This document shows positions 17,616 to 19,762 of a DNA stretch of 64,000 nt, piece after piece (positions within the stretch are counted from its first letter, which is position 1; the number at the start of each line of letters is the position of its first letter). The notes below the pieces were generated by a model, which was not told the DNA's origin, did not search any database, and saw only the letters and a program-made list of their open reading frames with translations. The stretch is from Spirosoma oryzae (GTDB lineage Bacteria; Bacteroidota; Bacteroidia; Cytophagales; Spirosomataceae). Location: the NCBI RefSeq assembly GCF_003002825.1, contig NZ_PVTE01000005.1:62001-126000 (forward strand), in the 5' to 3' direction. A program made the translations under genes and the position numbers.

Positions 17616-17711
17616 AAATAGCCGGCGCGTTAAACCATTTTATTGTTCATTTGTCTTTTAGGCGGACCAACGAAAAAAGGTCGCCAGTTGCATAACCATT
17701 CAACAAAAGCA

Positions 17712-18359
17712 ATGAAAACGAACGTAAATCCACTGATCCTAGGCTTCTTTGTATTGAGTTTATCGGCTAGCTCGCTGGCAGCCTGCGCACAGGCCACAAC
17801 GGGCGTTGCGACGACGAGCAAGCCCGTCACCGACACGAATAAAATTGCCGTGATTACGCCCATGCGGCAGATGATGTCGCGCCTGACCAAACTTGAACCC
17901 ACCGGCGATCCTGATTTTGACTACGCTCTACAGGCGCGCGTGCAGACGCAGGGACAGCTCGATCTGCTGAAGCAGGAAGCACAAAGCGGCAAGGATACCT
18001 CGCTTCGTAAAATGGCGCAGACGATGATCCCTACCGTGCAGGCCGATATCGATATGATCAACAATCTGGCTCGTCAGTTGCGTCCGTCGCGTCCCAATCA
18101 GGCATTCATGCAGGCACAGAATCAGAATATCAAGGCCATGGCGTTGAAGTTTCAGGCGGGCGGTAATACGGAGAACAAACTGACCAGTAATTTCGATGAT
18201 AATTTCGTGACGGTGATGCTCGACCAGCGGCAGGATGCTATCGACCTGGCGAACACCTACCTGAAATACGGCAGCAACGATACACTGAAAAAGTACGCTC
18301 AGGACCTGACGACGAAGGCCCAGCAGCAGATGAACAGCATCAAACAGACGATTAAGTAG
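17712..18359 (+). CDS. DUF305-like lipoprotein, two helical repeats
   Basis: 215 residues from the ATG at 17712. The signal peptide ends in SSLAAC, so it is likely a lipoprotein. Two similar helical units follow: DFDYALQARVQTQGQLDLL...RKMAQTM (about 68-115) and DNFVTVMLDQRQDAIDLANTYL...LKKYAQDL (about 155-205). Both resemble DUF305, a ferritin-like helical domain, but the usual His-His pair is replaced (QTQ and DQR). The metal site may therefore be lost. DUF4142 is an alternative name for such proteins. It directly precedes the rhodopsin gene, with a strong hairpin between them. Confidence 0.65.
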   Translation: MKTNVNPLILGFFVLSLSASSLAACAQATTGVATTSKPVTDTNKIAVITPMRQMMSRLTKLEPTGDPDFDYALQARVQTQGQLDLLKQEAQSGKDTSLRKMAQTMIPTVQADIDMINNLARQLRPSRPNQAFMQAQNQNIKAMALKFQAGGNTENKLTSNFDDNFVTVMLDQRQDAIDLANTYLKYGSNDTLKKYAQDLTTKAQQQMNSIKQTIK

Positions 18360-18376: not shown

Positions 18377-18421
18377 ATCGCGTGTAGCGTCAGGGAAACC
18401 TGATACTACACGCGATTTTTT
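18377..18421 (+). terminator. Strong hairpin between the DUF305-like gene and the rhodopsin gene
   Basis: ATCGCGTGTAG pairs with CTACACGCGAT, extended inside by TCAGG/CCTGA and a GAAA loop, and followed by six T residues. As sequence it is a textbook terminator. Yet the T-run ends at base 18421 and the rhodopsin ATG begins at 18422. It could end the upstream transcript, act as an attenuator, or fold over the rhodopsin initiation region. Confidence 0.8.
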
Positions 18422-19210
18422 ATGGAGTTATCCGAAACGTTTGTTCCAACGGCAGGCACGGTTGGCTTGCTGCCTATGCTCACCTATTACAGCCTGATCG
18501 TTACGGGGCTGGTCTTTCTGGCGCAGGCCGCTTTCGTGTTTACTACCCGCCCGTTGGTCGAGCCAAAACACCAGGCAGCACACATCCTGAGTGGCGTCAT
18601 CGCGCTGGTAGCGGGTGTGGCTTATTTCCAGATGCAGGACATCTACCGCGATATGCTGGCTGAACTGGCCACCGTCGTTGACGCCACCGATCGGCAAACC
18701 TTAATGCGGGAAGCGTACCCGGCTGTCAGTCAATATCGCTATATGGATTGGGCTATTACCACCCCGCTGTTGCTGTTGACTATGGTGCGGCTACTGAACG
18801 TGTCGCTGCGCAGCATCGCCCGGCCGGTTGCGTTGATGCTGGTTGCCGATCTGTTTATGATCGTTACCGGCTACATTGGTGAGCAGCAATTGACGTTTGA
18901 TCAGGAAGCTATCGTCAGCGCCAAACTTATCTGGGGGGCCGTGTCGACGCTGGGCTATGCCGTTGTCCCCTGGACGTTGTATAAGCTGTACCGACAGTAC
19001 GGCGCAGTCCCGTCGCTCGACCGATCATTCCGGCTGGTCGCGCTGACAACGATCACGTTCTGGGGCATTTACCCAATTGGCTATATTTTGTCAGCGACCG
19101 GTGTCGACACGAATGTCATTCATATCGGCTTTTGCATTGGTGACGTGATTAATAAAACGGGCGTCGCGGCCCTGCTCTTTCTGACAACCCACCGGCGGGA
19201 GACAGTCTAA
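18422..19210 (+). CDS. Microbial (type 1) rhodopsin with D-T-T helix-C signature
   Basis: 262 residues, seven helices. The Schiff-base lysine is Lys245 in DVINK, with Asp241 as second counterion, as in proteorhodopsin. Helix C reads RYMDWAITTPLLLLT: Arg106, Asp109 (primary counterion), Thr113, and Thr120 where proton pumps of the proteorhodopsin type carry Glu. The motif is therefore D-T-T, with no carboxylate donor. Leu117 is at the proteorhodopsin tuning position and predicts green absorption. Gly172 replaces the bacteriorhodopsin Trp138, the site that opens the carotenoid window in xanthorhodopsin. By my alignment the helix-B His of proteorhodopsin is Ala67. Transport direction or a sensory role cannot be decided. 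No retinal-forming oxygenase gene lies in the window. Confidence 0.93.
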   Translation: MELSETFVPTAGTVGLLPMLTYYSLIVTGLVFLAQAAFVFTTRPLVEPKHQAAHILSGVIALVAGVAYFQMQDIYRDMLAELATVVDATDRQTLMREAYPAVSQYRYMDWAITTPLLLLTMVRLLNVSLRSIARPVALMLVADLFMIVTGYIGEQQLTFDQEAIVSAKLIWGAVSTLGYAVVPWTLYKLYRQYGAVPSLDRSFRLVALTTITFWGIYPIGYILSATGVDTNVIHIGFCIGDVINKTGVAALLFLTTHRRETV

Positions 19211-19279: not shown

Positions 19280-19313
19280 CTAGTTTCCAACTACCATTTT
19301 GAACTCAACTATC

Positions 19314-19762
19314 ATGATTAAGAACGAAGAAATCGTTGATGATCTCAACGACCTGGTAAAAATCAACAACGACCGGATTCAGGGTTACGAAAAAGCAATC
19401 GAAGACACGAAAGATGCTGATCTGGACGAACTGTTCCGCCATAGCATCATTCAAAGCCAGAAGTTCCGCAGCCAACTGGCCGACCATATTGTCCGGATCG
19501 ACGGCACCGCCGTGTCTGACGCAACGACGAGCGATCTGTCAAGCAAAATCCACCGCGCCTGGATCGACATCAAGGCAGCCGTTACGGGCAAGGACCGGAG
19601 CACCGTACTAAGCTCGGTCGAATACGGCGAAAATGCAGCCGTCGAAGCGTATCAGGATGCCATCGAGAAAGACCACATCCCAGCTTACATCAAAGAAGAT
19701 CTGCAAGCACAACTCAGCGAATTGAAGGCAACCGCCGACAAAATGAGCACGCTGAAATAGTC
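19314..19762 (+). CDS. PA2169-family four-helix-bundle protein (DUF2383)
   Basis: 148 residues from the ATG at 19314; an upstream TTG is less likely. The start EEIVDDLNDLVKINNDRIQGYEKAI, the region LDELFRHSIIQSQKFRSQL, and the repeat-like second half (SSVEYGENAAVEAYQDAIEKDHIP) are the helical pattern of DUF2383, a ferritin-like four-helix bundle with Glu/His ligands. Such proteins are usually linked to envelope or oxidative stress, but no activity is established. It follows the rhodopsin gene by about 100 bases on the same strand. Confidence 0.85.

Follow-up and report, generated by a model that had tools for sequence, protein, structure and literature searches.

Can a proteorhodopsin-like protein reprotonate its Schiff base when the donor site holds no ionisable residue, and from what kind of rhodopsin does such a protein descend? 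This question is raised by a gene for a 262-aa rhodopsin at 18422..19210 (+ strand) of a 64,000-nucleotide stretch of Spirosoma oryzae DNA (contig NZ_PVTE01000005.1, positions 62,001 to 126,000; hereafter the window), in which threonine occupies the donor position. Our analysis showed that the protein is an orthologue, at one Spirosoma locus, of rhodopsins with a lysine donor, and that several intermediates between a light-driven pump and a different kind of protein occur together at this one locus. The branch with threonine is a test case for the reprotonation question.

Descent of the window rhodopsin from lysine-donor relatives

The protein matched the Bac_rhodopsin profile (PF01036, E 2e-32), its AlphaFold2 model (mean pLDDT 91.4) shows seven helices and a lysine lies in helix G, identifying it as a type-1 microbial rhodopsin. 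A sequence-only reading had placed Asp109, Thr113 and Thr120 where outward pumps of the proteorhodopsin type have Asp-Thr-Glu (DTE). Both the open reading frame (ORF) with its translation and a 119-row alignment bore out this DTT motif, whose codons all lie on the + strand: Asp109 (18746..18748) corresponds to Asp85 of bacteriorhodopsin (BR), the primary counterion and acceptor, Thr113 is encoded at 18758-18760, and Thr120 (18779..18781) corresponds to BR Asp96, the donor position, which is Lys in near relatives. The alignment comprised 119 chosen rows, namely 70 of 120 listed homologues after 4 duplicates were set aside, genus-set proteins, some named loci, ESR, Gloeobacter rhodopsin (GR) and xanthorhodopsin (XR), with G032 (broken), G024b and P0001 left out; ESR (PDB 4hyj) was aligned to the window protein by way of the Lys-donor (DTK) paralogue of the same genome. 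Thr120 was assigned to the donor position and Ala67 (18620..18622, + strand) to the helix-B His position, as the sequence-only reading had proposed, because the donor column holds Lys in ESR and Glu in GR and XR, and the column of Ala67 holds His in all three. Arg106, Asp241 and Lys245 (19154..19156, + strand; BR Lys216, the retinal Schiff base) are present. With Thr120 and Ala67, the protein has neither the donor carboxylate nor the helix-B His of DTE proteorhodopsins, and it has no ESR-type Lys donor, although it nests among DTK rows; with Lys245 kept, it is not one of the rhodopsins without retinal Lys (Rh-noK, opsin-related proteins). A sequencing or assembly accident is ruled out, because all nine rows of the DTT clade have Thr120 and Ala67 and the Thr120 codon is ACT, ACC and ACG, one each, in the three genomes read at the DNA level.

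Motifs were read from the best 120 of 779 homologues, of which 100 carried DTK, 10 DTT, 5 DTH, 1 DTQ, 2 DAQ and 1 DAK, one (P0100) being unreadable by the motif pattern; the organisms, where the source gives a name, were mostly Spirosoma or Hymenobacter. By this list and the tree described below, the closest kin of the window rhodopsin are Bacteroidota DTK rhodopsins, not the DTE proteorhodopsins with which it had been compared. The absence of a proton donor stands, but the near relatives also have no cytoplasmic carboxylate, and therefore what is new here is that Lys was lost. Likewise, the His partner is indeed missing from the window protein, but not from it specifically: 66 of 67 DTK rows carry Ser at the site and the remaining one Ala, His being absent family-wide.

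The tree was built from 85 of the 119 aligned rows with the motif columns removed, 32 near-duplicates having been thinned and G012a and P0025 left out. The window protein fell into a nine-row DTT clade (support 100/100) within a 45-row Spirosoma clade (100/99), itself within a 75-row set (100/99). This 100/99 support and the kept upstream neighbour place it in the Spirosoma locus group of the Bacteroidota DTK clade, while ESR and one other DTK protein stood beside DTE proteins, outside the window's clade. The DTT gene did not arise by recent duplication of the DTK gene in the same genome, since this paralogue (G000:C9) and the DTK genes of G018, G025 and G015 lie at other loci and in a different clade. 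Another DTT pair, P0112 and P0118, stands apart: it lies in the DTK set but not in the Spirosoma clade. Among 150 genomes of the family 63 had a Bac_rhodopsin match, motifs being read for the Spirosoma ones only, and no relative in viral contigs was confirmed.

Variation of the orthologous gene across the genus

A Bac_rhodopsin match was found in 35 of 36 Spirosoma genomes, and in 29 of the 36 the same DUF4142/DUF305 gene (F1) is immediately followed, after a gap of 56-81 nt, by a gene of the clade. Because they share clade and upstream neighbour, these 29 genes were taken as one-locus orthologues with the donor changed in place. Position 120 at the locus is K, T, H, Q, N or L. In 12 orthologues Asp109 is replaced by Ala, Gly or Ser, and in the same 12 Lys245 is replaced by Ile, Leu, Gln, Val or Cys; the truncated P0025 aside, no aligned row is without just one of Lys245 and the carboxylate at position 109, and two ETN rows retain Lys245. 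Parsimony on the 85-row tree, with reversals allowed, required at least 4 changes between Lys and any other non-Glu donor residue and at least 3 losses each of Lys245 and of the 109 carboxylate. These two losses coincide in 3/3 independent pairs, a number too small for significance. Named strains with Lys-less forms include S. endophyticum, S. terrae, S. spitsbergense and S. panaciterrae, and one further orthologue (G032) is interrupted by stops. The Lys-less proteins are constrained, with ratios of nonsynonymous to synonymous substitution rates (dN/dS) of 0.10-0.23 (7 pairs), and that of S. endophyticum gave a confident rhodopsin-like predicted model. The DTT clade does not lie within the clades that hold Lys-less rows, nor they within it, though the fork joining them lacks resolution.

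The DTT branch itself is under strong purifying selection, with dN/dS of 0.05-0.08 (3 pairs), compared with 0.04-0.10 for the DTK paralogue (4 of 6 pairs, 2 saturated), 0.08-0.13 for DTK at the locus (2 of 3 pairs, 1 saturated), 0.14 for ETN (1 pair) and 0.11-0.34 for DTQ (9 of 10 pairs, 1 saturated). The listed retinal-pocket residues, the retinal Lys, both counterion Asps and the gating Arg are fixed in 9/9 DTT rows; in the same pocket comparison DTQ rows are altered at T114, S175, T176, W214 and N244. Moreover, 23 positions are fixed in DTT and rare in DTK, including His54, Ser57, Ala67, Thr120, Cys238 and Thr246. His54 and Ser57, at the ends of codons 54-57 (18581..18592, + strand), occur in 9/9 DTT rows but in no more than 5% of the 67 DTK rows; by our own counting from known landmarks they correspond to BR 43 and BR T46, which puts His54 one turn closer to the cytoplasm.

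Conservation at the locus is distributed unevenly over the protein. The N-terminus, the B-C segment and the D-E and F-G loops, which form the extracellular side of this fold, are in locus members no less conserved than in DTK genes elsewhere and mostly more so, whereas conservation is lower in helices B, C, D, F and G, with helices A and E deviating; this pattern also holds for the Lys-less forms. The comparison set 28 rows of one Spirosoma group (broken G032 left out) against a more diverse 57 rows, with the reverse tendency of those five helices as its sole internal control. It hints that the outer face has a function outliving the chromophore, although relatedness may account for part of the pattern.

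We tentatively propose, as a possibility still short of an even chance, that the locus offers a natural experiment, with a light-driven Lys-donor pump in the course of becoming a retinal-independent membrane protein whose conserved part is the periplasmic face. The donor would have been lost in some branches with the retinal site and counterion intact, counterion and retinal Lys would have been lost together, and DTT would be a stable side branch that keeps retinal and is reprotonated via a new His54/Ser57/Thr120/Thr246 half-channel. The order of losses, and the role of an opsin without retinal, are directly testable by comparing orthologues, because DTK, DTT, DTH, DTQ, ETN and counterion-less, Lys-less forms all occur at a single syntenic locus within the genus. 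Rhodopsins lacking the donor or the Lys are already known, the latter reportedly from haloarchaea, fungi, betaproteobacteria and Guillardia, but the published cases found are separate groups. A search of a limited literature collection, judged mostly by titles and abstract openings, yielded no paper on this locus in Spirosoma or on any graded series within a single locus; none of the papers listed for DTT/DTH/DTQ wording was on rhodopsins, and a search on Bacteroidota donor loss gave no paper.

Possible activity of the DTT protein

We give a probability of about 0.45 to the reading that the DTT protein binds retinal, cycles slowly and is reprotonated in the absence of the usual donor, slow outward proton transport being its most likely net activity and light sensing or modulation the next. 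Judging from its residues, it would bind retinal and, with Leu117 as the tuning residue, absorb green light, and the Schiff-base proton would move to Asp109. The Schiff base would then be reloaded slowly from the cytoplasm, not from Lys120 but via a rebuilt half-channel (Thr120, Ser57 and Thr246, with His54 at the mouth), so that the deprotonated (M) state would persist for long and the photocycle would be slow. Slow reprotonation is proposed because the mapping of the branch-specific His54 and Ser57 would imply a more polar half-channel. Canonical pumping may be left to the DTK paralogue, joined in the window genome by an NDQ rhodopsin.

The donor Lys of ESR is reported to take a proton from the medium and hand it on, and the donor-disabled proteorhodopsin PR-E108Q and ESR-K96Q to show slow, rate-limiting M decay, so that only faint pumping is expected (PMC8387761). 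The earlier expectation that a fast outward pump is unlikely agrees with these reports and with the inactive SAR11 DTT-T proteins (PMC5864233). By analogy, the absence of a donor does not exclude pumping, since a SAR11 DTQ-Q protein acidified the medium (PMC5864233) and SpaR, with DTS, pumps at acid pH (PMC10154332).

Several points weigh against slow transport by a retinal-bound DTT protein. SAR11 DTT-T proteins reportedly gave no light-driven pH change in Escherichia coli and no apparent retinal binding, and working pumps mutated to DTT-T stopped pumping (PMC5864233). The role given to His54 is a guess, the residue lying one turn from where SpaR His37 acts. Moreover, a profile search found no Blh-type retinal-forming enzyme in the window genome, and its carotenoid oxygenase of the PF03055 family only presumably makes retinal. 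Expression of the rhodopsin is uncertain too, its start lying right behind a terminator-like hairpin.

Known systems resemble the window protein only in part. ESR shares its fold, shares the Lys donor with its relatives and is the best PDB sequence match of the DTK paralogue; compared with ESR, the window protein has Thr for Lys, Ala for the helix-B His and a longer B-C segment. DTT motifs are described for SAR11 proteins and FArhodopsins (PMC5864233, PMC10308929), some members of the SpaR-like clade and one of the MpR-like clade (PMC10154332). FArhodopsins and SAR11 DTT-T proteins are reported to resemble the present case in the motif, a second rhodopsin in the genome and Lys-less relatives. 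Unlike them, the window protein has no flotillin, the gene adjacent to FArhodopsins, among its four scanned neighbours, belongs to the Bacteroidota DTK clade (in a tree without SAR11 proteins) and has intact pocket residues. Mirror proteorhodopsins (SpaR, DTS/DTG) likewise have a non-ionisable residue at the donor position and a His close to where helix B ends on the cytoplasmic side, but SpaR His37 lies at BR T46 (PMC10154332), where all nine DTT rows have Ser57 by our counting, the His being at 54. CryoRhodopsins are defined by Arg at that position, Arg57 in CryoR1 (PMC12227055), which again differs from Ser57. Rh-noK and opsin-related proteins resemble the 12 locus orthologues in being without Lys, whereas the window protein keeps it.

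Alternatively, the protein may be a photosensor whose long-lived M state signals to a partner, net transport being irrelevant. We consider this unlikely, though it deserves weight: donor loss is reported to prolong M (PMC8387761), a DTK paralogue accompanies the DTT gene in 3/3 genomes and the extracellular face is well conserved at the locus, but neither a transducer nor a kinase was found among the four scanned neighbours (DUF4142/DUF305, DUF2383, DUF34/NIF3 and aldo-keto reductase), the genome at large not having been searched for transducers. It is less probable again that decay is in progress, the DTT protein being functionless or a chromophore-optional stage like the retinal-free opsins of the same locus. 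The 12 orthologues without counterion and retinal Lys, the further broken one and the donor changes in several branches would suit such decay; the low dN/dS and intact listed pocket residues of the DTT branch argue against it, as does the lack of nesting between DTT and Lys-less clades, despite the lack of resolution at their joining fork. Least probable, by a small step, is another ion or direction, whether inward proton transport, Na+/Li+ transport or a leak. An MpR-like DTG rhodopsin is a reported Na+/Li+ pump whose clade includes one DTT protein (PMC10154332), but the MpR-like cytoplasmic carboxylates are absent by our counting (window residues 50, 51 and 53 are H, Q and A), the NDQ motif is absent from the window DTT rhodopsin, and Asp241 is kept, whereas the DTS row G012a has Pro there.

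Retinal supply and genomic neighbourhood

The three DTT genomes each hold, besides the DTK paralogue, a PF03055 gene. Within Spirosoma, Blh-type PF15461 was matched in 10/36 genomes and PF03055 in 6/36; the lycopene-cyclase family was matched at E 1e-47 or better in 35/36 (G025 only 3e-5), and also weakly in 10 of 14 control genomes. Among the 29 locus genomes, 9, the three DTT genomes included, have Blh or PF03055 and all 9 have another rhodopsin, whereas only 1 of the 20 with neither enzyme has one (Fisher p 1e-6, kinship ignored). A Lys-less form occurs in 12 genomes, of which 10 gave no match to a further rhodopsin and only G030 holds a retinal enzyme. This simple rule meets exceptions in G012, which lies outside the 29 locus genomes and has DTE and DTS rhodopsins with neither enzyme matched, and in the intact locus DTK genes of G002, G013 and G031 (L056, L054 and L053), whose genomes gave no Blh/PF03055 match. 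Beyond Spirosoma, Lys-donor genes accompany retinal synthesis: of 10 such genomes checked, 9 had a Blh-type enzyme (6 Hymenobacter, 2 Fibrella, 1 Lewinella) and 1 Cyclobacteriaceae metagenome-assembled genome had none. In L071 and L077 a related gene, probably Blh to judge by its matching coordinates, lies ~0.9 kb downstream of the rhodopsin.

At the locus, F1 (17643..18359, + strand; domain scan, with a lipobox-like LAAC by our reading) is the upstream neighbour, and a DUF2383 gene (19299..19760, + strand; domain scan) follows downstream, its family being present at the three DTT loci and at G031. Between F1 and the rhodopsin, a hairpin of -28.6 kcal/mol with a T run (18377..18421, + strand) ends at the rhodopsin ATG. 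At the family start codon it folds at -16 kcal/mol or lower in 28/29 loci (G006 is weaker, -11.3), and no such strong hairpin precedes the four DTK paralogues; with mechanically chosen starts it passes in 16/28 locus genes and 9/362 other genes. In a 13-row subset 9/16 pairs change on both sides, which 0/500 shuffles reach, and some orthologues have an in-frame ATG inside the hairpin. No Rfam match was obtained for the region. F1 was matched in 36/36 Spirosoma genomes, 7 of which have no rhodopsin beside it. In three of these (G019, G024 and G028) the 70 bases behind F1 form one long hairpin, and in the other four long inverted repeats are visible by eye in the 110 bases behind F1; in most of the seven the next long ORF is on the opposite strand, so the repeat could serve that gene too. 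The hairpin is most likely the terminator of F1, the simplest reading because inverted repeats follow F1 even where no rhodopsin does, and a regulatory RNA before the start codon was set aside on the same ground. An F1-rhodopsin partnership is weakened by these seven genomes and by the intervening terminator-like hairpin.

Two other rhodopsins were noted in these genomes. At G000:C7:271578-273938, outside the window, an NDQ (sodium-pump type) rhodopsin is directly followed by the PF03055 carotenoid oxygenase, a neighbourhood also seen in G023 and likely a retinal-forming pair; PMC7979833 is reported to give one NaR for Spirosoma. The DTS rhodopsin of G012 (L051) has Pro at the BR D212 position, a xenorhodopsin-like feature, and also a hairpin just before its ATG.
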